From Ceratodon purpureus (Eukaryota; Streptophyta; Bryopsida; Pseudoditrichales; Ditrichaceae), in NCBI GenBank assembly GCA_014871385.1, contig CM026426.1, positions 32,574,636 through 32,638,635 of the forward strand: 64,000 bases of DNA. Direction: 5' to 3'. This document shows, piece by piece, positions 5,716-53,500 of this stretch. How positions within the stretch are numbered: position 1 is the first letter of the stretch; each line of letters opens with the position of its first letter. Under the pieces are notes generated by a model. It was not told where the DNA came from. It ran no database searches and saw only the letters and a list, made by a program, of their open reading frames with translations. A program made the position numbers and the translations under genes.

Positions 5716-6004
5716 TATGGCTTTGTTAGACGAGATAGGGTGATGTTAATGCAGGAGAATCTATGGAGGTTCGTAGTACCTGACCGCACTCCCCCAACAG
5801 CCACGAGCAGCTCGAGCGAAGTCTCCGGCACCGCTACCTCAGCTGACGCATCCAGCCTGCCAACCAATGTTTCTCATGTGCCAGTCCCGGATAATAGTAC
5901 AAGTAAGATTCGAGCTTGTTGTATTATCATAGCCACAGTGAAGGATTCCATTATTTTGCACATTATTCACTTGACTAATCCCTCACAAATTTGGACCAAA
6001 CTTT
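5716..6004 (+). pseudogene. gag: Copia gag, N-terminal part (left of insertion)
   Basis: The translation contains RRDRVMLMQENLWRFV followed by a serine/threonine-rich linker and then ACCIIIATVKDSIILHII and SQIWTKLC, the UBN2-type gag signature of Copia elements (aromatic-rich start, then the A-x2-II-x2-V-x-DS-x2-HI block and the W-x-x-L motif). The frame runs straight into the terminal inverted repeat of the 11-kb element, where it stops. The remainder of gag continues with YDVQSPSRR at about 17063. Upstream coding for the first residues is eroded. Confidence 0.75.
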
Positions 6005-6042
6005 GTCATTAGGGGAAAAATGAGGTCTCCAACGGGCCTTGT
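6005..6042 (+). repeat. Left terminal inverted repeat of the 11-kb element
   Basis: Begins GTCATTAGGGG and contains GGTCTCCAACGGGCC. It pairs with 17021-17058 on the opposite strand, 29 of 38 positions identical, in blocks of 9 (tip) and 9 (GGTCTCCAA). Confidence 0.75.
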
Positions 6043-6043
6043 A

Positions 6044-6070
6044 AGGCAGCCCGGATTAGGTGGGCTGCCT
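6044..6070. repeat. Perfect subterminal hairpin, left end
   Basis: AGGCAGCCC and GGGCTGCCT form 9-bp perfect arms around a 9-base loop. The arm contains GGCAGC, the core of the motif dispersed through the element, in inverted orientation. Confidence 0.8.
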
Positions 6071-6781
6071 GCCCAAAACCCCCTCTGTCGCTGTTAGCAG
6101 GGGTCTGAAACGCTGCCCGAAGCGGACGGACGGGAGTTGCGTGGCCGGGTTTTGCCTCGTTGGCGAGAGGGCGTGGACGGTGGTTGTTGAGCGCCAAGGA
6201 GTGGGATTTATTGCTCGGCGATTAATGAAGTGCCTCGATCCGTTGCCTCGATCCACGGATTGTTCGAGTTGTTGCCACAACGGTCTGGGCGCTATGGCGC
6301 CACCGGCTCTACGCCGTTCAGCACCAAGAAAACGAAGCGCCCTGTTCTGCTTCAAGCAAGTCGTTGTTGGCACTGTGGGACGCACAATCGTATGTGATTT
6401 GCGAGAAAGATTCCGAGTGGCGATGGCGCCCCAGACCGGAGGAGCAAAATTGAGATTGCAATTCATTTCTTGGCAGCGTCCGCTGGCAGCGACGGCGGCG
6501 AGGGGTTGTTCTCAGTCGGCGACCAAGGTTTCAACGAAGAGATGAAAACTGATGTACTTGAAGGGAAGGTAAGTTAACCTAATTCGATAAACCTTTGTGG
6601 GGTGTTCAGGGGCTACTGGGTTTTTGAGCAATTTGAATTTCGATTTCATTAGCCCTTGCTGCCACAACGGCATAAGGCAATGTAGGTTTCGTGGTCGATA
6701 GCGCTTGTAGATGCCACGCAGGTCTATCGAATTAGGTTCGGAGTATTTGAGGTTGTGAATTCAGTTTTTCATTGGGTGTAG
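6071..6781 (+). other. Leader of the transposase-like gene with likely 5' intron
   Basis: GC-richer sequence between the left end and the first start codon I trust. A good donor (GAAGGGAAG then GTAAGT at about 6570) and an acceptor (GGGTGTAG at about 6781) suggest an untranslated first exon and one intron. TGGCAGC occurs at 6471 and 6484, and its complement at 6658. The open frame at 6060-6545 has no recognisable domain and I do not call it coding. Confidence 0.45.
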
Positions 6782-6880
6782 GAGGTGTCCGAAGATCAGA
6801 ACAAGTTCTCTCGAATAACAGCAAATCACCAAGTGTGACCAGGGGAGATTCAATCAAGATTACCGACTATAGGGTCCACG

Positions 6881-9800
6881 ATGGCAGCAAGGGCTGAACG
6901 AAGCAATCAGTACATTCCCCACTTTGCACTGGACACACGCTATGCCCCGGTCATGAAACGAGGTTCTACGCAAGTGGAGCTGTGCATGAGGAGCTCGTTT
7001 CCAACACGGAGGTTGCGTGGAGACACGAACATTGACTTGTGGATCAATGGAGACATTTACCCTGTTGACCCAATGACAGGGAAGCCACCTCCAATCAAGT
7101 TGCTAAAAGAGTTCGTTGAATTCATATGTCATGGAGAGCAGGGTCTTCGCGGATATACACACAGGCTGCTGGATCATTGTGTACATGGTTCTACACTGGA
7201 GGAGACGCGGATCCAGTTGGCACAGTTGAGCGAAGAAGTGCTTCAGCTTAGAGGCGAAGCTCTGGCCAGCAACTCAAGGGCAGCCCAAGATGTCCAATTG
7301 GGGAGAATGCGTTGCCTTGAGTTAGAGAAGAAATGCAGGGATTTGCAAGCTGAATTACAGGCTGTCCGTGATTGCCATGCCCAAAGGGTGGAGCAATTGG
7401 AGCGCCATGTGCGGGGTCTCCAAGAAGACGTTGACCGCTGCCAGCGGAGGGCCAGCTTCGAGAAGGAGACCCCCATGGGCATGCGAAATAGGAGGAGGGC
7501 TCTTAGAGGGATTCACGAGTTAAAACCTGGATCAGGTGGATCAAAAGCAAGAGTGAAGCTTGTGCGGACAGTGCTGCAACCAGATGTGGTGCAGTTTGTT
7601 GTCGAAAGGAACCGAGAGAACCGGAAGTGCTCTCGACTGCGGGGGGATAAAGAGTCCCAAAATAGGACTGCAGTAGCACTAGCTCGAATTTTGTCACGGC
7701 ATGAAGGTGTAGCGCTCGCTTCTCAGCCTGCAATGGCACATGTTCAGTCAGATATTGCGAAAAATGTGCTCAAATCGATTGGTAAGAGTATTGGACCGGA
7801 CAAAATTCTTGCTGCTTGCGACCAGGCAGGGGTTTCCCATCGGGATATGGTGCTCTCTACAAATCTGTGAAGGCTCCTATTGCTGCTCTTAACAAAGGAG
7901 TCTCCGGGAGTATTTTGCCGAGCCCCTATCACGTGAAACTGCTTCGGCAGGAGTTAAATGCAAACCTGCCACAGTATATTGGCGAATACTACCATGCTGA
8001 AGGTCGACTTACGCTGCCAGCAAGTTCTAAGAAGAACAAGAAGTCCGAGGACATGGTAAAGGAAGTCGTTTTGACTGACAAGAATTCCCTATTCACAGAC
8101 CTTGAGGTGGTCCAAAGGAGCATGGTGATCTTCTACGGCATCACGGAAGAAGGTAACGTAATCACCTGAGACTGTTGTTTTCAGAGTTTGCTGCCAGCAG
8201 GGTTATTTATCAATTAACCGTGACTTACACATCCACTTGCCATGTTTCCACAGAGTTAAGAGGGGCACCGCTGGTATTTGTCATGAAATTGGACGAGGCC
8301 GAGATTGTCAATGGCAAGAAGTTTGAACGGGTCAGCATCACATTGATGAATAGGGCGCTCGACCCAGACATTCAGAGAAACCATGCCCTGTTTTTCTCAG
8401 TCCAGTCGGAGCAGGAAATCTGGCCAGTGGCAACCTTTCAGGTGGAAAAAGAGTCCTACGAAGTTCTGTCGTGGATATTTGGGAAATCCAAATTTCCATC
8501 TGTGATTGCAACACAGTCCAGTGGCGAGAAACTCACGGTCCCTGAAGTTGGAGAATTCCATGTGGAGTGGCATCTCGCTGCGGACATGAAGACGATCAAG
8601 TGTATGTACGGGCTTCAGTCGGGGCCGTCGTGTGCGATGAACTGCATATACTGCGAGCAGAAGAGGGCTAAGCCTACCGTAGGGACAGCAAGCCAGGCGA
8701 GTGCTGCCATCAGAAAACGTGGGAAACCGAACTGGATGGGGGGACTGTTTGCCAACTCTGTGGAGCCAGAACCATGTGACATGCGTGCACATACAAGGTG
8801 GAGGCCTATCTTGCCAATTCCGTTGCAAAGAGTGCACATTTGTACACTTCACGCCCTAGTTCGCCTAGCGGAGAAGATTGTGCATCAACACATCATTTAT
8901 GTCTGGAACATACAAGATCAAAGACTGAGGGCTACAGCCATAGAGCAAATGGAGAAGTCCTTGTCAGCTATCGGGGCTCACGGTGGCAATGTGGAGATTA
9001 GAAAGGATCCGAAACTGAGTGGCAGCACAGGGAATGTGCCACAGAAGCCATCTTTCAGTGGGGTTGTTGCTAGCAGACTATTTAAACCAAGCGTATGGTC
9101 TGGAAACGACAAGGCCTGGAAAGACATATGTCAAGCAGAGAGCAATAATAGTGGCGGCGGTGCACATCGTAGGGCAAGGGCTGCTATGTGGCAAGCCTTT
9201 GAAGAGGTTCTACCATATTTCAGCGGCTTGGTGCTGACAGCAGAACAACGACTCCAGTTCAGAGGGAAGATAGAAACGTGGGGGAGAACATTTTTGGAGG
9301 CCTTCGGAGAGGAGCATGTGTCGCACTACATGGTGAGTTATATGAACGAGTTTTGGGATGAATTAGGGGTTGATGGCTGACCTCACTTTTGTCAATTCTC
9401 TATCCATGACTAACCTTGGAGTGGCTGTTGACAGCATGTAATTGTCAGGCATGGCAGTTGGTTTGTGGAGGAATACGGTAGTTTGGCCGTATGGAGTTGC
9501 CAGGGTATGGAGAAATCCCATCATCAAGCAAAGGCAGCGAATCAAGCGCATACAGCTCACGGTGGTGGCAAAGTGCGCATCAGTGTTATTTTGCAACAAT
9601 TCCAGCATTGGTACCGAAATATACAGCATCGGTATAAGAAGAAATTAGAGTCCACCAGAGTTCTCAATACCCCGGATGATGAGGCAAGATTGGAGGCTAC
9701 GCGTAGAAGGCGAGAACAATGGCATCGATCAAATGCTGCCAGGGCTTTGGAGAATTGGCGGTCAAGGCGACGGCGTGTTGGCAAAGCTTGGGTGTGTGAT

Positions 9801-9974
9801 AACACCGTTGGAGGTGATGGAGCCAACAATGATCAAGCAAGAGGATCTGCCAACGAAGATGACCCCGAGGAGGAGGGCAACAATGTGGATCTTGAGGAAG
9901 GACGCAACTCAACTGACGGTGACGACGCTGGCAACAACGTGGACAGCGATGACGCTGGCAACGAGCCTGTATGA
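6881..9974 (+). CDS. Transposase-like protein of the 11-kb element (one frameshift)
   Basis: Coding exons are 6881-8152, 8254-9332 and 9435-9974 with canonical GT..AG introns of 101 and 102 nt. A single lesion, one base apparently missing near 7841-7846 (CATCGGGAT), shifts the frame; with one base restored the exons sum to 2892 nt, about 963 residues. The order is: a basic N-terminal domain; a coiled coil (about residues 105-205); a central domain with ADMKTIKC and the Cys cluster CAMNCIYC (about 8631-8655); a His-rich stretch LQRVHICTLHALVRL; and a C-terminal block HYMHVIVRHGS, YGSLAVWSCQGMEKSHH, TAHGGGK. An acidic, N/D-rich tail follows. The layout of spaced D, Cys cluster, H and QGxEKxH recalls uncharacterised cut-and-paste transposases of animals and protists, so D...D...E chemistry is an inference. 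It may be a recent pseudogene or carry an assembly error. Confidence 0.6.
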
Positions 9975-10400
9975 ATTGAGTACAAATTATGCGTTCTAAA
10001 CTCATTGGATGGACATCTATAATGTAGCAAGTTTTTTATTTTTTTTATATTTTTTTGATCGGAGTAGACAGTGGATCTTCTTTAACATGTATTTTGGTTT
10101 CATTCTAGAATAGCCATTTACGGATAGATTTATCAAAAAATGAGGATTTTTTCGAGTAATTCCCTAAAATGGCTATGCATTGCTATGTTAATCTCCATAA
10201 TTATTCAAGAGGCACCCATTGAGAAGGTAGTAACTCCACTGACGGAGAGGTCGCTGGCAGCAAAGAGGATAGTGACGACGGGAGCAATGGCCGTGTGTGA
10301 TTTGAGAGCTCTGTGTCTTAGTAATTAATTTGTAGCTATGTAGAATGTGGCTGCGAACAATGTTTTTTTTTTTTATTGGGTTAGACCATGGTTCTCCCTT
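9900..10400 (+). repeat. Partial duplication of the gene's 3' end
   Basis: The end of the coding region (about 9910-9975: CTGACGGTGACGACGCTGG and on to TGTATGAATTGAG) has a diverged second copy at about 10238-10310 (CTGACGGAGAGGTCGCTGG on to TGTGTGATTTGAG). Both copies are followed by a T-rich run and a segment with TAGAC..TGG. A 16-base block TCGGAGTAGACAGTGG occurs exactly at 10059-10074 and again at 11672-11687. The second copy has no supported coding role. Confidence 0.4.
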
Positions 10401-10689
10401 AAACTTGTTTTGTGGATAACTCACGATAGTGCCCACTCCATGCAATTAGTAATCTCCTTAATTAATGGGTCTTAGTAATCATATGTACCGGTCCCACTAA
10501 AATTAAGATTTTAATTTCTGAGATGATTTTCTAAGTACCCACAACAAATGGGGATGTGTGGTTTAGGGCCATGGCAATGATTTTATGGAGTGGCAATTAA
10601 GGAGGATATGAGAGCTTCCCACCAACTCCGTAACCTCCCTTCATTAAACAGTACTTGAGACCCTGAACCCCCCTAACCAAGGACGCACA

Positions 10690-11582
10690 GGTGGTTGACT
10701 CCAGCACGGGTTCCCCTCTCAGTTCTTCTCTTCTTCCCACACGCCGCACGTGGTTGACTCCAGCACAAGTCCGCGCCTTCTTGCTGTCGAGGCCGCTCCC
10801 CTTGCTTCCAGCAAGCGCGCGAGCTTTCATTCGTTTTTCAATTGGAGCTGTGGGTGCCGAAGAGAGACCGTGGACACGAAGGAGGGCGTCTTCGTGCCGT
10901 TGCTGATCGGGAGCACGTGACGCCGAGGGCAGCAGCTGAGGAGTCTAAGAAACCGTTCGAGGTTGCACAGTGCAGCTCGAAGGAGCTGCAGCGTGCGGCG
11001 CGGGCCGTGGAGGAGGGGGCAGCTGAGCTCGGGCGCAAGGGACGACCTGCGACTGAGCTGCAAGGAGCTGAAGAGGGAGCTCCATTGCACGCTCGCTCAG
11101 GCGCAAGGAGCTGCGGAGGCGCAAGGGGCGCGAGGAGGCAGAAGGGACTGCGGGGGTGCAAGGGGCTGCGGAGGCGAGCTGCGGAGGGCCGCTGCAGAGG
11201 CGCAAGGGGCTGCGGGGGTGCAAGGGGCTGCGGAGGCGAGCTGCGGAGGGCAGCTGCGGAGGCGCAAGGGGCTGCGGGGGTGGAAGGGGCTGCGGAGGCG
11301 AGCTGCGGAGGGCAGCTGCGGAGGCGCAAGGGAGGAGCGGAGGAGGCGCGCAGCGGCGAGTTGCGGAGGAGCAAAGTCGTAGCACGGGTGCCGCGAGGCG
11401 CAAGGAGCGGAGCTGCAGACGCGCAAGGGGCGAGTCGCGGAGGCTGAAGAAAGGGTGAGCTGCAGAGGCGCGTAGGGGCGAGTTGTGGAGGCGAACATTT
11501 CTGGAGGCGCAAGAGACGAGCTGCGAGGCGCGAGGGGCGAGCTGGGGAGGAGCAACAACAATTCTGCTTCGGACTTCGGTGA
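10690..11582 (+). other. GC-rich leader exon of the RING-CH gene
   Basis: A GC-rich stretch ending at a strong donor (GTGAG then GTAAGC at about 11583). It probably forms the untranslated first exon of the next gene, spliced to an acceptor at about 11850 (CAGCGCCAG), three bases before the ATG. Long open frames occur on both strands here only because of the repetitive, stop-poor composition. The 48.6-50.6 kb paralogue has a similar purine-rich repetitive leader on its coding strand. Confidence 0.5.
11145..11331 (+). repeat. 62-bp tandem repeat, three copies, in the leader
   Basis: Copies start at about 11145, 11208 and 11270 with a 62-63 bp period. Each begins GG(A)CTGCGGGGGTG and ends GGAGGCGCAAGG. 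Shorter relatives of the GGCGCAAGG and AGCTGCGGAGG blocks extend the array to about 11540. All copies contain GGCAGC or GCTGCGG cores related to the element-wide motif. Confidence 0.85.
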
Positions 11583-11852
11583 GGTAAGCTGCTGGTTTTC
11601 AGCTCTCTCCTCCGAGCCTCCTCGCATGGTTTTTTTTAATTAGCTGTTGGAGTGAATCGGCCATGGTGTATTCGGAGTAGACAGTGGTTCAGCCATGGCC
11701 GCCGGAGTCCTTAGTTCTACAGGATTTTTGGAGTGAAAATGTAACTAGTCTAATCCGCAAGAATAATACCCTGTCCGTTTCTCTCCTTTCAGCTGCCATG
11801 CGCGATCCCCCAATCGTAAAACGTGTTTTTTTTTGCACTACCAGCGCCAGGG

Positions 11853-13842
11853 ATGTCGAGCCGTAGGAAGGGAAAGGCCGCGGCTTCTCGGGAGGAGGAT
11901 CGCACTAAGAAGAAGGAGGCCGTCGTGAAGAAGGAGGTCGTCGAGCTTGCTGACAGCAAGGAGGATGCCAACGATGTTGAGACGCCATGGGATGATGCGT
12001 TCGACTTGGAGGGCTTACCCCCTGCACTTCATGCACAGCTCCACCACCTCGCCCCATTTCTGCTGGGTAGGCATGCTGCGGATTACGATGAGGACTTCTT
12101 TGCCCGCACCTTGCAGCTCTCCAACAAGGGGTTGAAGTTCAGTGACCTCAGCAGCGAGAAGCACTGCAGGAAGAAGGACTTCATTGACAGATGGCCAGAG
12201 CGTTCTTCTGGTCGGCACTACGTTGCTGACTGTGAGGATCCGGAGGCCCAGAGGAAGTACTTGGAGATGTACTGGTGGACCTATGGAGGTGACCCCGACA
12301 ATTGGGCATTCGGGACCACCTTCCTTCGGGCTTGCCACCTCTACTTTGAGGAGGGCGTGGATGTCAACTTCGCCCAGAAGGCGGAGGCAATTGTGAAGGG
12401 GCGCGAGAAGCTGCTAGGGCGTAATCCGCAGAAGTTGACACCCCGGGCCTTGAGGGAGCAGATTGAGGCCATCATCGACTTCCTCGCAGGCCACGTCCCC
12501 GGTGCTGTCAGCAAGGGCAAGGGAGGAGGGGCGGCTGCGAGCGGAGGAGCCAAGGCAGTCGGAGCCACCTCCAAGGCCATCACGGCCGCGGAGGCGAAGA
12601 AGGCAAGGGGTCCTAGATCCGTGCCCGCCCCTGTCAAGGCCGTGGTGGAGAAGAAGGCCGTGGCTGAGAAGAGGGCCGTGACGACCCCTGCTGCCGCTGC
12701 CATCCAGGTGCAGCCCTTGGTGGCAACGGATCCGAAGCAGGTCCTGGAGCAGCAACGCCTCAAGAAGCAGTCCTTGGAGGCGGCACTTCTGAAGGTGGAG
12801 GCCAGCCAGCACCGCGTGAAGGTCGACCTTGCAACCCAGCGGGACTACATCAAGGCCAAGGAGGCCGAGGAGTCCAAGCTCTACGACGACATCTTCTCCG
12901 CCCGCGAGGCCGCCAAGAAGGCCGCGGCTGATGGCAACGATCAAGAGAAGAGGCGCTTTGATCAGGCGGCCCGCTTAGGCCAAGACAAGCTGGGGCTTGC
13001 AAGCAAGGCACTCCTTGAGGCCCAGGCCCGCATTGACAGGGTCTACAAGAAGTTGGAGGAGATGGAAGCCGATGAGCAGAGACGGCATGCTGAGGTCTCC
13101 GCGCTGACAGCGGAGATCTCGGCCTTGGAGTTGGCATCAGCTTTCTTGCGGCCGCAGAAGGTGTTGGCTCGTTACCCCCGGGAGTTCCAGGTGTTGCCAA
13201 TAGCCCTCAACGACCCATGCCCCTTCTGCGAGCGTTACTTCGTTGACACCTGCTGCGTGCCTTTGTTCTGCGGCTGCTTGGCACATCCTCATTGTATGTT
13301 TGAGGCAGTCTTCTCTCAAGACGCCCGATGCCGTCGATGCGAGCGGGGGATGACTGGAGGGTGGCTTGGGCAGTGGGGCTTCGACCTTGACTCCAAGGCC
13401 GCGGAGGAACTACGCCTCACGGAGGAGATCCTTCTGGCCGAGCCCGCTTCACCACGTGCTGGCAGCAAGAGGCCCGCTGCCCCCTCAGTGGCCGCGCTTC
13501 CGTGGAAGAAGGCCAAGGGCGACCAAGGTTTGTGGCCCCTCATCCCATCTACCCATTTCTTGTTGCCTGCCTTGTTGTTACATTTACATTTTCTTGTTTT
13601 CTAACTCTTGTTTGTTGCCAGCAACTGCAGAGGATGCTCTCCCCGACTCAGACTCCCTGGCGTTCGATCCCACGCAACGCTCTCCTCAAGAGACCCAGGC
13701 AGCCCTATCTGGAGATGGGAACAAGGACTCATCCGCCACCACGCAAGGACCACCTGAAGCAGAGAAGAACGAGGACGACACCAACATGGAGGGACTGTCG
13801 AGCCTTGTTGAGGCAATTGCCACAAACGCAAACGTGGAGTAG
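11853..13842 (+). CDS. Coiled-coil protein with C-terminal RING-CH-like zinc finger
   Basis: Two coding exons, 11853-13527 and 13622-13842, joined by a 94-nt GT..AG intron, give 631 residues with no stops. Layout: a Lys/Glu-rich start; a conserved domain (about residues 45-190, containing TPWDDAFDL, RWPERSSGRHYVADCED and LTPRALREQIEAIIDFLAGH); an Ala/Lys/Pro-rich linker; a coiled coil (about 300-430); and a zinc finger at 456-496 with spacing CPFC, CGCLAHPHC, CRRC. That is C-x2-C, C-x-C-x2-H-x2-C, C-x2-C, the C4HC3 order of RING-CH/RING-variant fingers. Such fingers usually bind E2 enzymes, so E3 ubiquitin-ligase activity is possible but unproven. It lies inside the 11-kb element, downstream of the transposase-like gene. 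A decayed paralogue is at 48.6-49.6 kb on the minus strand, so the gene also exists outside this element. Confidence 0.75.
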
Positions 13843-14950
13843 ATTCCCACCTTGGATAGTTTTGTAGGCCGGGTTAGGGGTTTGCTGGCAGCGACTTCTG
13901 GTCCGGACTTTTATGGGCCACCTTTCTTAAACTTTTCCGAACTTGAAAACAATTTGCCTCTGGACTGCCATGTCTCTTTGAAAGATATGGCATTCTTGTA
14001 ACCCTTCCTTTTTATTCGCAACTGTATTTCTTCTTTATTGTGGACTGCCGACAGCAAGGGCTGCTCTTTAGCCACCATTTTATCTTTCGAGCTGTTGTTC
14101 TCTTCAAGCCCGCGCTGTCTGAGAGCATTGTGCCCTCATCGAAGTTCTTTCCTTTGTATTTCCCTTCTTCTATGCAATCAGGTTGCATTTTTTATTTCAC
14201 CGCTGGTATTTTTTTTTTTTCTTATTTCATTATTCGCCACCATGGTCCCTTTCAATTTTGGCCATTGTTGTTATTTACCATCTGCGACCTACTTCATCTC
14301 TTATGTACAACTGTTTTTTATTTTTATCTTGTTCTATTAGAATCAAGCGTGGTTCTTTTTTTATTTGCAATCTTCCTTTTTTCCTCTTTGTTGGCACCAA
14401 GGGCTGCATTATGCCCGCCATTGCCAGTTCAGAGCACCAGGTTCACGAAGGAGCCAGCCTCTTCGGAGGAAGTAAGAAACTTTACATTCCTTCCTAATTA
14501 CTTCATATCTGTCAAGTGCCAAACTCCATTTTCTGCCTCTGAAGGGTCATGTGCTCTATTGTATGCAATTTTTTTTCTTTTCTTATTTTGCGCTGGCAGC
14601 AGGCTCCACCGTCAATGGCGCCACCACAAGTTTGAAGCAATTTTGCGATTCAGACCCAGGCCCTCTGAAACCCCGGCCATTCTTCAGACTTCTTGTATTT
14701 TATTCTTTTTTTCATTTTGCACCCTAGGATTCACCACTGGTAATTGTAACTGTTTTTCTTCTCTATTTCCGCTGGCAGCACGAAGATCAAGGGTACTTCA
14801 AATTTGCCTCCATATAACACATTAATAGAGGATGTCCCACAGAAAGTCCTGAATGGTAAGCAGAACCACTACCTGAACTCGCTAACGACTTCGCGAAGAA
14901 CCTAATGACTTCCCACATACTGTGACTACCCATCCCCGAAATCACTTTTC
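13843..14950 (+). other. 3' region of the RING-CH gene with T-rich introns and small exon-like blocks
   Basis: Alternating T-rich stretches and short GC-richer blocks. Blocks at about 14398-14472, 14602-14700 and 14780-14853 are bounded by plausible acceptors (GCGCTGGCAG, CCGCTGGCAG) and donors (GAAGTAAG, ATGGTAAG). They may be alternative 3' exons of the upstream gene or a small further gene. Frames across them are not consistent enough to call a protein. The gene on the opposite strand ends at 14951. Confidence 0.35.
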
Positions 14951-16289
14951 CTACAGCTCCACAATCTTCATCCTTTTGGGAACCGTGACATCCGCAGCTG
15001 TAAGGTGTCTCTCATGGCGCTGGTTGATCTGCATCCAACAAATCCTGTCATATTCGTTTGCTGGCAGCAAGGAGCTCTGAACAGCCAATTCCCAACACAT
15101 CAAAACGACTACATGAATTCGGCTAGACTCGTACCTTTTTCTCACGAACACCGTTGGCCTCTATCAAGACCAGGTTGTACTGCCCAGGTACGTCATCTCC
15201 AAGTGCCATTGCAATTTCGTGCCGCAGGTGGGATAGTGGCCAACCCTTGCCAACTTCGAATGTTGGCAGCAAGTTCCCCCTAAACATACAAGACACTTCC
15301 ACCATCACCTCCTCTGGTAGGTGATCCAACGCTTCCCACTGACTGTTGGCAGCCCCCCTATACCTTGTATACATGAACCTGGTGTATAATGTTTGTCTTC
15401 CCACGTGATAGCGGAAAACAATGCTGGTCCTGTTGGCAACGCACTTGATGACATCTTGGCCAATGTGGAACTTCTCGTTCCACCCTGGGTTCATTAGACT
15501 GCTCAGCAGAGCCTCGGATGGACTACTCAAAACAAACAATGTAGGTGTCCGCCTAATGCTGTCAGCAGCTACCGCAAACAAATCAACCATAACATGGATT
15601 GGCATAAACCATTGCTGGTGGACGAAGCTGCTACCAGTTGTTGCTTTCATAGCATTTGCAAAATCGAGAGTGAGCTTTGTTCTAAACGCCTCAGATGTGT
15701 GCATGTCTGGCAAAGGCCACTCCACATCGTTGAACCCTGGAAGCGGGAGTGCTTCAACCTTCCCGTACAGCGTGTCACCTGTTGGAGGCAAATACAGACC
15801 ACCAAGGAAGAATGTACCTATGTCCAGCAACTCCGCGTGGCTCTGTCGATTCCGTGTTGCCTCCCCAATCTCAACATGGAGCACAAGAATGGGACCAAGG
15901 ATAGATGCAGGATGTACCCAATCCTCCGAAACCGACGCGTACAGGTAGTTTGCCATTCCCAATTTGGTTGCTGCCTCCGCAGGATCCAAGCGCAGATGCC
16001 TTGGTTGATATGCATGTTGCACAAGCACCTTATCGAGGTCGCATGATCCATGCTCCGTGGAGATCCAAGAGAAATCTTTGATCTGCGCTTTGAAGGCCCC
16101 CCGAAAATTTTCTCCACCATGTCGCCTTGCCTCTCTACCCCAAGGCCCATCCGACGCTGGTTGCAGCATAACCCATGAATCACGATCCACCTTCATGGGG
16201 ATCCAGTTGCCCTCCAAGTCTTGAGTATTATGCAGAATGACACTCTGTACGAGGGAGTTTGGCCGTGAAGCCATACCACTAGAATGCAT
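14951..16289 (-). CDS. Element-encoded protein with possible ubiquitin-like C-terminus
   Basis: Read on the minus strand, exon 16289-15135 is joined to exon 15076-14951 by a 58-nt intron (donor AAAAAG/GTACGA, acceptor GGCTGTTCAG/AGC), giving about 426 residues. The real start may lie further upstream: the frame stays open to about 16310 and plausible small exons occur near 16321-16360, but I cannot resolve them. The bulk of the protein matches no family I know. It contains LGPILVLHVEIGEATRNRQ and GGLYLPPTGDTLYGKV. The end, FRGNLLPTFEVGKGWPLSHL followed by RHEIAMALGDDVPGQYNLVL, has the beta-beta-alpha-beta rhythm of ubiquitin-like or PB1-type folds; this is inference only. It is divergent to the other two genes and ends about 1.1 kb from the RING-CH gene. 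Confidence 0.5.
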
Positions 16290-16948
16290 GAAATTTTCGA
16301 CTGTGAACTTAAAAACTTACAAATGGTGTCGTCGCTGTCATCAACCGCCAGAACTACACGCTGTCAACACACCCTCCGCCATCACGAACGGCTGAAACCT
16401 GCGTCCACGGCCTCGCAACCAAGGTACGACCTACCCTAAAACCTCATCCCGAAACCCCAATTCCCAACTCAGGTACTCTCTCCAACCTATGTGGATGGCA
16501 GACCGCTGGCAGCGTTGGAAGACCACTACAGCTAAACCCTAAATCTCTACTGCACAATGCGTGACCACCCACAACCGAAATCGAACAACTTCGCCCAGCC
16601 TTTGGAGGCCTCCACCGCTCCATCCTGCTTGACAACGCAACGACGACAACTCTCTCAGGGGAACGCATGAGGTTCGGAATGACCGTTGGCAGCATTTCGA
16701 CATCAACACCTTGTGCACGTTGCATCTCAAAGGGGGATCGGCAATTCGATTTCGGTAGGTGGCCTGTGGAGTCAGTTTCGCAGGCGTTCATAAAGCCCAC
16801 CACCGCTGACACCCTTCTGCAATGCTCGAATTCCGTGCGCGAAGAGGCTCCGTTCTCGACCTGCGGGACTACACGCGCGGGGGAGGGAAGCCTTCCTGCG
16901 CGACTATTGGCCGGACCCCCCCATTCGCGATTTGGCTCGCTTTTGGCG
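16290..16948 (-). other. Right arm of the 11-kb element; leader of the minus-strand gene
   Basis: GC-rich sequence between the divergent gene and the right end. TGGCAGC occurs at 16507 and 16687. A possible acceptor (GTGTTGACAG) with a 40-nt block at 16321-16360 could be an upstream exon of the minus-strand gene, but the adjoining 20-nt gap is too short for a normal intron. No other coding sequence is supported. Confidence 0.4.
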
Positions 16949-16977
16949 ACCTGCTGGCACAGTTGGTGCCAGCAGGT
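16949..16977. repeat. Perfect subterminal palindrome, right end
   Basis: ACCTGCTGGCAC and GTGCCAGCAGGT are 12-bp perfect inverted arms around a 5-base loop. The arms contain TGCTGGCA, a form of the dispersed motif, in inverted pair, like the hairpin at the left end. Confidence 0.85.
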
Positions 16978-17020
16978 AAAGTGCACGGGCATGCCCAAAA
17001 CTTTGGCACGGAAAGCATGG

Positions 17021-17058
17021 AAAAGGCTCATTGGAGACCCCAAACTGCTCCTAATGAC
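17021..17058 (-). repeat. Right terminal inverted repeat of the 11-kb element
   Basis: On the minus strand it begins GTCATTAGGAGC and contains GGGGTCTCCAA. It matches the left end at 29 of 38 bases. Immediately beyond it the Copia gag frame resumes. Confidence 0.75.
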
Positions 17059-17650
17059 CTTATACGATGTACAAAGTCCATCTAGACGTCCTCCTTTAAA
17101 AGAGAAGGTTTACTCTCTCAGAATGCAGGAAGGAAAGAGTCTTGACTCTCACCTACGGGATATAAACTCAATAAGAACACAGTTAGCTAGCCTAGGAGTA
17201 CAAGTAGATGATGAGGACCTAGTGGACAAGGTCCTCTCTTGCCTCCTCAAGAGCTGGTCGACATTAAAGACAGTTCATTACGGAAAAGAACATACTCCGT
17301 CTTTCTCCGAGCTCTAAGGCTCTCTTCTGCACAAAGAAAGCTCCTGCAATCTTGACACACAGCAGGATTTAGAAGATGTGCTTTATGTCAACGGAGAACA
17401 ATTGGACATGAACTACTCAAACAGGGCACCAAGTCGACCTTACTATACTGGTCGAGCAAGACGCAGCTCACCCAGCTTCCAAGGAGGAAGATTAAGTAGA
17501 GGATGTGGCCATGCACCTCTCAGTCCTCGAACTTGCAAGAAATGTGGCAAGGGAGGTCACACTGATCTCGAATGCAACGTCACCAAGATCAAGAAGCGGA
17601 TACATGACCTGCAGGTCAAACTCTCACACTCAAGACCACAGAAAGCTCAT
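17059..17650 (+). pseudogene. gag: Copia gag, C-terminal part with zinc knuckle (right of insertion)
   Basis: Resumes with YDVQSPSRR and KEKVYSLRMQEGKSLDSHLR, typical of the Copia gag core, followed by VDKVLSCLLKSWSTLKT. The frame stops at 17315. The CCHC knuckle CKKCGKGGHTDLEC (C-x2-C-x4-H-x4-C) lies at about 17535-17575 in a different frame, so at least one frameshift separates them. Confidence 0.8.
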
Positions 17651-48080: not shown

Positions 48081-48645
48081 ACCACGCGGCCATCCCCGCG
48101 GCCATCCGATCTACGGCCCCCACGGCCGTCCGATCCGGCGCGACTCCGCCCGACGGCGCCGGCCGTCCAATCGGACGGCCGCATCGGGCGATGGCGCCGC
48201 GTGGCCGTCGCCCGACGCGGCCGTCTCCGCGGTCGGCCGCGTCTCCCCGCGGTCGCCTACGCGGACGGCCACGGGATCGGACGGCCCTCCTAGGCCGACC
48301 ATGGCGGCCGCGGGCCGTCCGATCCCGCGGCCGTCGCCGTGGCCGACCGCGGGGACGGCCACGGGGACGGCCGCGGGATCCGACGGCCCGCGGTCGGCCG
48401 CGGCGATCGGGCGGTCCCCGATGGCCCGCGCCGGGATCGATCCGGGCCGTCGGATCCCGCGGCCGTCCCCGTGGCCGTCCTCGCGGTCGGCCACGGCGAT
48501 GGCCGCGGGATCCGACGACCCAGGAGAGCCGCCCACATCGGACGGCCCGGGATGTGCCAGGACGGCCGCATCTTGGCCGGCGGATCGAGGTGCGGCCGTC
48601 CCCAGCAACCCGCGGTGCGTTGCGTTGCTGGCGGCCCCCGCCTTG
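48081..48645 (-). promoter_or_regulatory. GC/CpG-rich island with GGACGGCC repeats
   Basis: About 565 bp of extreme GC content built from GGACGGCC/GGCCGTCC, CCGCGG and GGGATC(C/G) blocks in both orientations, more than a dozen copies of the first. Long open frames exist on both strands only because stops are rare in this composition. It lies immediately upstream of the kinase TATA box and ends abruptly against the RING-CH paralogue at about 48640. The 28.3-kb island shares the cores CGACCACGCGG and ACGGCCGTCC. Confidence 0.6.
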
Positions 48646-50590
48646 ATGCTTGCAGCACGGTGGACGGCCACATCCTCATAGAACCGGTTCTCGTCATCCT
48701 CCTTCTCCTTCAAGAAAGCCTTCCTCGTTTGCAATCTCCAAGAATCACCTCCCTCTGAGCCTCCTTCTTCGCAAGGTCGGCCTGAGCTCTTGCTTTCTTG
48801 GTCTTGGCCTGGTCCAACTTCGCCTTCGGATCTGAGGTAGGTCGGTCTTCATATATGCTGACAGCAAGGGAAGACTTGGGAAGGGTTTCCTCCTCAGTCT
48901 CCAAGGCCGCCTTTGCCTTGAGCGCGCTTTGAGTGCGACCCCAAGCTCCCTTTACTCCAGGCCCTCCCTTGTTGCTGCTTCCAGTAACAAGGATGCCCTA
49001 GCTAGGTTGAATGCCTACTCTCTTAATGGCCAAGGATGTGTTGCCAGCAGAGGATCTGTCGTCAATGTGGCCAGCGAGCACGTCGATGAGGGCCTCGATC
49101 TGCTCTCTCAAGGCTAGGGGTGTGAGCTTCAAGGGATTGCGGGCAACCCCCTTCTCACGTGCCTTTTGCAAGGACTCTGCCTTCTGTGCCCAGTTGACAT
49201 CTTTGCCCAACTCGAAGGTCAGATGACAAGCTCAAAGAAAAGAGGTACCAAATGTGTTGTTGTTTGGGCCTTCACCTCTATACACCTTTGCATGCTGCTC
49301 TGTGTAAGTGTCGATAGCGAGCTAGTCACTGCAATCAGCAATGTAGTGGCGCCCTTCTAACCGCTCTGGCCATGTCTCTATGAACAAGGATTTCTTGCAT
49401 AGCTTGTCACTGCTGAGCTCGGACATTGGAATCCCACTGTTGCAGAGACCGAGTGTGCGGTTGAAGAACTGGTTGTCGTACTTTGCCCTCTTCCTTTCAA
49501 GAAAAAAAGGAGCTATCACCACGAGCTTGGACGCCACATCCTCCAATAGCGACTTCAGGTCGAATGGGAGGTTCCATGGCGTGTCAACCGGCTCCTCCTT
49601 GCTGCCAGCAACCATGGCTGCGAAACAACATAGAGTTGTTAGTCACACATTGTACCCACACTCAAAGCTCTCTAACTCTTAAGTTAATGAAGTAGAAAAC
49701 AGATGAGGAAAATGCTTAGGCTCTTTGATGACAGCAAGAACTGTAGCTCCCTCCTTAACCTTGGCTTCTTGCATACACTACATGGAATTTTTTTAATAGA
49801 GACACCTACACATTTGGACTCGCACGTGCTACACTATGCTCAGCGCTTACAGACTTCTAGGCTCAGGGCTTCTTGAGCAGCTGCTGCGCACACAAAACCG
49901 AAACATACACGCTGTTGGGAGAAATACCTGAATACTGCCGCGACCCTCTAATCGCCCCTTTGTCCTCCGCTGCTGTCCGTCCCGCCCTCCCTTGCTCAGC
50001 CGCACCTCTCTACCGACAACCAAGTACGAAATCCCCATCAAATATGAAATCCGCGACAACTACGAAATCCCTAGTACCTGTGAAATCCTCTGCAACTACA
50101 AAATTTTCAGCTGCCCTGAAATCCACAGCAACAATGAATCCTAACAACTATGAACGTGCCAATTTACCTAAAATCAGCAGCAATCCTTGAGCGCTTTCCT
50201 TCCTCCTTCAGCTCCCTCCTTCCTCCTTCAGCTCCCCCCTTCCTCCTCCAACTCCCTCCTTTGTCCTTCAAGTCCCTCTTTCCTTGGACAGCTCCCTCCT
50301 CCTCAATCAGCTCTCCTTGTGCGCCTCTTTGACCCGCGCAGAACCTTCACCCTACTACTCCCTCCTGTGCGCCTGTCTTTCCCGCTGCGCAACACCCCTT
50401 TCAGCTTTCTTGCACGCGCTCGCCTCCTGCAGCCTCGTGCAGCAGCTTGCACCCAAACTCGCCTCAACCAACGGCGTCGCGGAGACGTTGTTGACAGCAA
50501 CGGGAGCAAGAGGGGGGATGGAGAGTGCCTCTCCCCCTCTCTACACCGCGCAGAAATGGGCGCCGCAGTCATAGGGTACTGACCTGAGCC
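48640..50590 (-). pseudogene. Truncated paralogue of the RING-CH gene
   Basis: Minus-strand pieces match the gene at 11.9-13.5 kb in order: the start with AGSKEEPVDTPWNLPFDL and ETWPERLEGRHYIADCSD (49615-49322); DVNWAQKAESLQKAREK and LTPLALREQIEALIDVLAGH (49205-49065); and a coiled-coil part with FLKEKEDDENRFYEDVAVH (about 48715-48660). The zinc finger is missing, because the frame runs into the GC island at about 48640. Frameshifts and stops separate the pieces. Upstream (50190-50580) is a purine-rich repetitive leader on the coding strand, comparable to the GC-rich leader of the intact copy, ending with a GTTGACAGCAAC-type motif at about 50490. This copy is not accompanied by the other two element genes. 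Confidence 0.7.
50183..50300 (-). repeat. Degenerate tandem repeat of about 19-20 bp
   Basis: Repeated CTCCCTCCTTCCTCCTTCAG-like units (read on plus) in the leader of the RING-CH paralogue; about five imperfect copies between 50195 and 50300. Confidence 0.65.
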
Positions 50591-53500
50591 CATTTACCTC
50601 TAGCCCCTTCTACAATGTCACATCACATTGTTCCAACTTTAAAAAAAAACACTAATTATAAAAAAATAACAGAAATTGAGGAAAAGAAAAAAAGGGAAAA
50701 ATAAAAACAAAAATAAGATAAATATCCAAAATAGTGTATAAATTATTATTCATATTTGATAAATTGAGGAATATGACTTTTATAAGTTTATCAAATTCTT
50801 ATGATTTATTCTACAATATCTTAATGGAAAAGTGTATTTGATTTTTATTTTAGATATTTAAATTTCATCCTTCGTCTACTTTTCCTATCAGGTATTTTTA
50901 TTTTTATTTTTATTTTATTTTATTTTATTTTATTTTATATACAATTTTCATTCTAAGATGTGTGGTGGTGTGATGGGTCTCGCAACACACGGTCAACCTT
51001 TGTCGAGAGAGAGCTGTCAAGAGAGAGAGCTTGCAGTCGAGCAGAAGTGGAGGAGAAGAGCTGTGTTTTGAGGTCAAGATACAGACTTTTAGTTAAGTGG
51101 TGTGGTTCTTTTGCGAGCGGCTGCTTTTACGAGGAGGTCGATCAAGGTGCAGTCAAAGGGCAGCTGAAGCAACGGCGGTTACTTTTTATTTTTAACTTTT
51201 TAAAGGTGTTCTTGGTGCGCATGGATGAGATTTGTGAGTCTAGATGGTTCAGTTGGCTCAATGAGGTCGTTTAGTTGCTATTCGACGGAGTAAGCGTGCA
51301 AGCGGAGAATTGACGGTCGTTGTGTAAGCTTGTGGCTGTTCGTTTTATTTTCTTTTAGAAGTGTATGTGCAAGCGGCGATTCTAGTTCTATGGCTTTTGG
51401 TTCCTCGGTGCTGTTGCATTCAAGAGCTCTCCTGGTGAAGGGTTGGGGAGATTTTATGGTTGGTTGTCAAAGGAATTGAGCAGCAGTTTCCAGCTGCTAC
51501 CTGGACAAGACAAGTGATCATATTTTGAACTTAGACTTGAAACAATTCAAGGTCAATGACGTAAGGTACAGTATTGAGTTTTAGTTTTTAAAATTGCAAT
51601 AGGCTTCACATCAAAGACCATGACAGAACATTGTTCCTCACATCATGCTTTAGAACAATTGGATAAATTGAAATCCTTTTATCTATATGCATGCATGTGT
51701 TATGAGAGGCACGGTAAAATGGAATACCAAAAATATGACTATACATGCAACCAATTACAAATTTTAGTAAAAGAGTAAACAAAAGTAATTATTTACGTCA
51801 AATGTAGTAATTTTATGCATAAATCTTCCAAATATGGAAACATGATGTAAGTTGGATGATTTCCATGTACACAAAAGTATAAGAATCGGATTTGAAATCA
51901 AAAGACATGGTCACTCTTGATAGGACCACTTAAACTAACCTTGAGGAAATAAACCATGAAAGTAAACCACTTTCACCTTCTAGTTGGCATCGATTCGTAT
52001 TTCCACTATGACGATGGGGTTCAACCACATGTGTTGGAGACGTGTACGTATGTCCTAATTGACAGCAAAACTCACAATATTCTGTCAAGAGGGTGACCAA
52101 ATGAGGGTCTCCTAATTGACAGGGCAGTTAACAAAATTCCGTTAGATTGTAGTCAAACAGGTCACAAAAGTTCTTGTAGTGGTTGGAGCCAGCCATTGAC
52201 ATCCTGTTCCGTTTGCACTTTCAGCGTAATTTTTCAAGCCCTACATAGGATTTTTGCTATAGAAAATTTGTCGATCTCCCTCCTCCATTGCCTTCTATTT
52301 CTAAACTGCTCCATCTAGTGGCTCTGCAAAACTTTACATGGCAAAGCTAAATTCCATTTGGTATACATTCTTGTGAACATCCTCCTTTTTGGATGGTCTT
52401 TTTTGTATTAGAAGGCAACTAGCCTATATTTAGAACTGCAGCATGCTTGGACTCTACTTTAAAGAATATGTCCATTGACACAAAAACAGTGTTGGTATGG
52501 ATTCTATGCCTAACCAATTCAGTTATACCACCCCCTTTGTCCATCATTCCCTTGCCATTGTTGTCTACACGCCCTGTCCCTTCTCTGTTGTCTACTTCCT
52601 CTGTCCAAGCGGTAGTAGGCACTATTTCACTATCTACTGCAGCCTTCAAGTTTGGAGTTGCCCTAACCGTGATTTTCCTTCAAATTACCTCCACACTCTT
52701 CCCCTACTTGGACTTGAAGTCAACGTAAGAGAGAAGCTATGTCTTCTTTCTATCAGGGTAAATAGCCTCATTGCAGTAGTCTATGAAGCGATGCCAATTA
52801 AGCATCATCTTGTTGGAGTAGCCATCCTCTCCATAATGAATGTAAACAATATATCGACATTTTCCATATAGTGTAAGCTTCAACTTACACATGGTAAAAA
52901 AATTCTATTCAGTATATGAACTCGCTGCTAACCAAGGCACAAAATAATGTATGTAGTGCTATAGATTTGCACCCTTAGTGTCATATTTTCAAGAGCCGTC
53001 CTATCTTTTAACACTTCATCTGACCTTGGTCTGCAAACATGGCACCTTCCAAATGTCAATGAAATGAACATGAACTTTTTCTTCAACTCTACTGCTTCGC
53101 CACACTCATGAAAGCAAGAGACCTTGTAATGCTAGTCCTCCTCACGACGCTCGACAACGTCTCTGCCAAAGAAAATAATTAGCCCAAACGCATCAGAAGA
53201 GATGGAACAACAAAAACAAAAGAGAGTAGTAACAAATACAAAACTTTCTTGTGTTGGACATATCTAAGCCCTAAATGTCTAAAATTTTCATGAAGATGAA
53301 GAGATATAGAATTAGTTGCACTGTAGACTGCGACACAATGGGTTAGAACTTTACAAAAATGAGTTTGGAATTGTTTAAAACCTAGGTATCCGCCAAAATC
53401 CAAACTCCCTATTTACATGGATTTTGATGTTATTGCGTTGAATAATTCATGCATTTGTGCCCTCTTGGGAGTTACCATCCAATGCGGAACAACATTTACT

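Follow-up and report, generated by a model that had tools for sequence, protein, structure and literature searches.

An 11-kb transposon of the moss Ceratodon purpureus, probably Lanisha, with a predicted RAG1/Transib-fold transposase and insertion without target duplication

A stretch of 64,000 nucleotides from the moss Ceratodon purpureus (contig CM026426.1, positions 32,574,636 to 32,638,635; hereafter the window) contains a Copia gag gene interrupted by about 11 kb of DNA with inverted ends. A preliminary description read the insert as a DNA transposon with three intron-containing genes, left its family unassigned and saw the absence of a clear target duplication as a gap in the evidence. 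The locus raises the question of what kind of transposon this is, and how it inserts if no target bases are duplicated. The best explanation as a whole, to which we give a probability of roughly three in four, is an 11-kb transposon of the CMCT clade with a transposase of RAG1/Transib fold and zero-bp insertion, probably Lanisha.

The limits of the element were fixed by comparison with other copies in the assembly, which gave 11,050 bp with ends 5′-CATTAGG...CCTAATG-3′. The inverted ends had first been detected as 36 nt of 78% complementarity (6005-6040 and 17023-17058). Their local alignment scores 40, whereas the best of 2000 random pairs drawn from the window reached 31. Since the sequence common to the copies stops at 6007 and 17056 and the flanks diverge from there, these positions are the true ends; the outer GT/AC is Copia sequence that matches by chance, and each end was therefore moved 2 bp inward. 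The inverted ends first described are thus real, but not their size (38 bp, 29 of them identical), the proper terminal inverted repeat being 34 bp with 26 identical positions.

The assembly searched comprises 362.5 Mb, 30% of which is the 110.5-Mb contig that carries the window (C6). A 26-base pattern of the left end, with two degenerate positions, has 242 exact matches in the assembly and the 26-base pattern of the right end 130, with none for either reversed control. When the 100 left and 57 right ends listed for contigs 1-6 up to the window were paired, at least 48 pairs resulted, of which 28 span 10,768-11,409 bp, four 3.5-6.2 kb and 16 exactly 451 bp, and the spans therefore point to three classes, namely full-length copies, derivatives with deletions and a family of short non-autonomous copies. 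The 451-bp copies (e.g. C1:5293717-5294167) keep both ends, with the left-end variant CAGGTCTCC where listed. Five of the 12 fetched 10-kb slices (L010, L012, L015, L017 and L019) align collinearly with the window copy (about 98% identity) and contain all three genes, the third being truncated by the slice end in each. L011, L013 and L014 have internal deletions but retain both ends. Of the others, L020 shows greater divergence, L018 carries an interruption, and L016 and L009 match only to 7.1 kb and 0.8 kb, respectively. In the 3.8-kb deletion copy L013 (C7:13651176-13654992), the first 50 bp of the right flank recur approximately 210-260 bp upstream of the left end. Exon 2 of the transposase gave 113 scored matches among 1079 candidates, 92-100% identical and 68 of them without a stop. 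Judged by the identity of their ends, which reaches 99%, the full-length copies are young.

These observations bear on whether the locus is a transposon at all. A cluster of host genes, or a large duplicated segment, with chance inverted ends would fit the plant-type introns and the resemblance of the BAH-like and RING-like domains (see below) to host domains. Such an origin is extremely improbable, as the copies have sharp common termini at unrelated sites on many contigs, and it is already contradicted by the precise empty sites described next. Sharp termini, empty sites and 451-bp copies with both ends require an enzyme that recognises the termini. The initial reading as an 11-kb transposon with three intron-containing genes is therefore upheld, and the genes, far from being unlinked, travel together.

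The lack of a target duplication turned out to be a consistent feature of the full-length copies rather than a gap. Both flanks are known for 33 insertions, namely that of the window copy, those of 25 out of 27 copies with a left end predicted 10.8 kb from the right end, and seven others. The 27 were taken from the 39 best right ends other than that of the window; L051 and L065 showed no end at the predicted place and were dropped, as was L083 for the same reason, and L013 was retained with its rearranged flanks. Adjacent direct matches of 0, 1, 2 and 3 bp occur in 20, 9, 3 and 1 of these insertions, where shuffled left and right flanks give an expectation of 22.2, 7.8, 2.2 and 0.7. At the window junction, ACTTTGT|ACCTTATA, all eight aligned uninterrupted Copia copies cross without a gap (the search gave 28 matches, two being the flanks of the window itself and 18 not aligned), so that the gag gene is indeed broken here and none of these relatives includes the 11 kb. 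A further insertion, with flanks L069 and L042, has an empty counterpart in L009 in which the flanks directly adjoin. Sequence comparison of filled and empty sites shows that full-length copies insert with neither duplication nor loss of target bases. The target is weakly two-fold symmetric about the junction, with C at the fourth (12/33) and A at the third position (17/33) to the left, and T at the third (19/33) and G at the fourth (14/33) to the right.

The short copies weigh against such an insertion mode, in that 5 of the 16 copies of 451 bp match over at least 2 bp where 1.5 are expected (permutation p 0.011). All five are among the first 10 copies, and none is among the next six. A fixed 2-bp duplication in the 451-bp copies, hinted at by the first 10, was rejected when it was not repeated in the next six, and because of this mixed result uniform behaviour of every derivative is not claimed. 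The short-copy matches might also be taken as traces of an original 2-bp duplication that was later lost from the full-length copies. This is improbable, since the full-length copies are young yet the 33 show no duplication beyond chance, no base is gained at the eight aligned Copia empty sites or the additional one, and the later six short copies show none either.

To which family does an element with zero-bp insertion belong? The models of all three genes combine splice sites read from the sequence with homologs. The transposase gene has three exons and 963 codons, the length first proposed, with a 1-nt frameshift near 7844 inside exon 1 of the window copy. This frameshift is not general, because 10 of the 11 fetched slices that cover the spot are 1 nt longer or shorter there than the window copy; the 98% identical homolog P0027 is open through it. 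The wider protein database holds 31 relatives (four, then 27 more). A structure model of the homolog P0003 has RAG1, ProtoRAG and Transib as its top structural matches, from which a RAG1/Transib fold is predicted for the transposase, a fold that is not specific within the CMCT clade. The protein has both motifs of that clade, C(2)C (C555-x2-C558) and H(3-4)H (H785-x4-H790), and from fold and position D438, D535 and E810 would be the catalytic acids. KDZ/Zisupton and Kolobok were also considered; the fold search led to RAG1/Transib instead. For the 31 family members the Pfam matches were all weak, coiled coils among them, a sequence-profile search of PDB gave a designed coiled coil at E 0.18 and nothing else, no relative was confirmed in IMG/VR and prokaryote genome contigs, and no viral fold matched at E ≤ 0.001.

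With RAG1, ProtoRAG and Transib heading the structural matches, one has to weigh whether this is a plant Transib or RAG-like (RAGL) element proper, its BAH gene taking the role of the RAG2 chromatin reader. The ends read CATTAGG and lack the CAC-type heptamer of RSS/Transib-like ends, the N-terminal part of the third protein models as BAH and not as a kelch propeller, and the structural library may simply be without other members of the clade. Transib-like proteins are reported in plants, 39 in number (Tao et al., PMC9435367), but the 5-bp duplication that is near-universal in RAGL and Transib, according to the available part of PMC7204232, is absent from the moss element. We consider this alternative unlikely. 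The CMCT assignment, by contrast, agrees with the clade features, including both motifs, given in the consulted text of PMC12730594, and thereby provides a placement that the preliminary description lacked.

Within the CMCT clade the element is probably Lanisha, a name supported by host, abundance and the people who proposed it. The proposal is due to Maumus, McDaniel and Carey (Repbase Reports 2020, 20:2521, cited in PMC12730594), and Maumus and Carey are authors of the Ceratodon purpureus genome preprint (a reference in the part seen of PMC8000587). The host fits as far as it can be told from these authors, and the abundance fits too. A previously undescribed CMCT lineage separate from Lanisha is less probable, though the strongest of the alternatives; the zero-bp insertion, the BAH gene and the RING-finger gene go unmentioned for the clade in the consulted text of PMC12730594, while host, abundance and authorship favour Lanisha. 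No account of the element's anatomy turned up in the literature searched, although its zero-bp insertion or its BAH gene may already be in print.

The two partner genes both exist as intron-containing genes, as first described. The second has two exons and encodes 631 aa with a coiled coil and a C4HC3 finger of spacing C-x2-C-x13-C-x-C-x2-H-x2-C-x11-C-x2-C. Pfam finds no domain in this protein at E ≤ 0.5, and the earlier label RING-CH therefore describes ligand spacing alone; the coiled-coil gene with a RING-like finger stands. The third gene, on the minus strand with one intron, encodes 410 aa, the N-terminal part of which models as a BAH fold. It has 38 relatives in the wider protein database, one being a Ceratodon purpureus entry, 44% identical, on a 112-Mb contig. 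Pfam gave nothing above the curated cut-off for the third protein of the window, and no kelch or other RAG2-like fold was among the matches listed, although the C-terminal half may still hold one.

A palindrome, TTGCTGNCAGCAA, is scattered through the element. With at most one mismatch it occurs at 9 sites against 0.00 expected, and with at most two at 17 against 0.60 (20 first-order simulations), an enrichment that is partly after the fact since the motif was defined from the element itself. Many short internal motifs are also a feature of plant CACTA elements, in their subterminal repeats. An independent test is offered by a second cluster at 48.6-50.6 kb, with four sites against one in the remaining window. 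It coincides with a decayed minus-strand gene whose translation matches the RING-finger protein with 51% identity along 98 aa (E 6e-31), and motif and gene therefore recur together in a diverged relative. Nearby, 48150-48525 is very rich in G+C with dense inverted repeats, whose arms reach 79 nt and are 95% complementary. The copy number of the tandem repeats between the first and second gene seems variable among element copies.

Table 1. Coordinates of the element, its genes, its insertion site and associated repeats (positions in the window).
Feature	Position	Strand	Basis
Whole element	6007..17056	+	Ends common to copies with differing flanks; assembly pattern matches; empty sites
Left terminal inverted repeat, 34 bp	6007..6040	+	26/34 identical to right repeat
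Right terminal inverted repeat, 34 bp	17023..17056	-	26/34 identical to left repeat
Interrupted Copia gag, left of insertion point	5976..6006	+	Alignment to Copia copies
Interrupted Copia gag, right of insertion point	17057..17086	+	Alignment to Copia copies
Transposase exon 1: coiled coil, DNA-binding and pre-catalytic part	6881..8152	+	Predicted
Transposase exon 2: D438 (codon 8292), D535 (8583), C555-x2-C558 (8643-8654)	8254..9332	+	Conserved alignment columns
Transposase exon 3: H785-x4-H790, E810 (codon 9510)	9435..9974	+	Alignment with P0002 and P0003, the sole homologs in it extending so far
Second gene exon 1: coiled coil and C4HC3 finger of RING-like spacing	11853..13527	+	Relative at 48.6-49.6 kb
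Second gene exon 2	13622..13842	+	Gene model
Third gene exon 1: N-terminal BAH-like domain	15135..16289	-	Homologs and structure model
Third gene exon 2: C-terminal tail	14951..15028	-	Tail like those of several homologs
Palindrome TTGCTGNCAGCAA, scattered over 17 sites at up to 2 mismatches (e.g. 8188, 11947, 15058)	6483..16975		
Imperfect tandem repeats rich in G+C, spaced 62 bp, between first and second gene	11059..11374	+	
Decayed fragment of diverged relative: RING-gene homolog and four TTGCTGNCAGCAA sites	48600..50600	-	

The distribution of copies over the assembly seems to differ with age. Of the 40 best ends on either side, 17 left and 7 right ones lie on C6, compared to its 30% share of the assembly, and an excess of the youngest copies there is not clear. 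C6 holds 20 of the 25 most diverged scored transposase copies and 6 of the 25 closest (the window copy counted), and old copies seem to persist there. C6 is perhaps a non-recombining sex chromosome; the U and V chromosomes of Ceratodon purpureus exceed 100 Mb each in the available text of PMC8000587.

One may propose how such an element moves. The transposase, with D438, D535 and E810 as acids and C555, C558, H785 and H790 as zinc ligands, would join the element ends to the target by attacking two target phosphates directly opposite each other at the weak palindrome CANN|NNTG, and with zero stagger no duplication would remain after repair. That excision occurs by cutting is an assumption carried over from the clade. 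A histone mark is the probable ligand of the BAH-like protein, which might guide the complex or shield the element from silencing, and TTGCTGNCAGCAA is probably bound by a protein that the element itself encodes. It is a tentative and rather doubtful suggestion that a land-plant lineage of the RAG1 fold has given up the staggered cut in favour of zero-bp insertion into a palindromic target, and that it encodes a putative BAH reader of histone marks as an independent analogue of the RAG1/RAG2 pairing, neither property having yet been described for the element. A staggered cut leaves a short target duplication, the usual mark by which DDE transposons are identified, and annotation that requires one would miss this family and its 451-bp derivatives. 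A young, abundant element of the RAG1 fold class without duplication offers a way to ask how the geometry of RAG-type enzymes sets the stagger, and a transposon-borne BAH-like protein, if true, a system for studying the use or evasion of plant histone marks.

Compared with known systems, the element shares its predicted transposase fold with Transib, RAGL and RAG1. The order D, D, C-x2-C, H-x4-H, E is common to RAG1, where the last residue is E962, and the moss transposase. RAG2 is built on a kelch propeller, whereas the moss element has BAH-like and RING-like partners. Partner proteins as such are a point in common, as RAGL has a second protein and RAG2 a PHD chromatin reader (PMC7204232, part available). 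With EnSpm/CACTA the moss element shares the clade motifs and CA..TG ends, but not the CAC..GTG termini and the 3-bp duplication (PMC12730594, text consulted). At E ≤ 1 there is no match to any Pfam CACTA model. Spy belongs to the Harbinger/ISL2EU side and has a different transposase. It is nevertheless likewise a group of DDE transposons without target duplication (Han et al. 2014).
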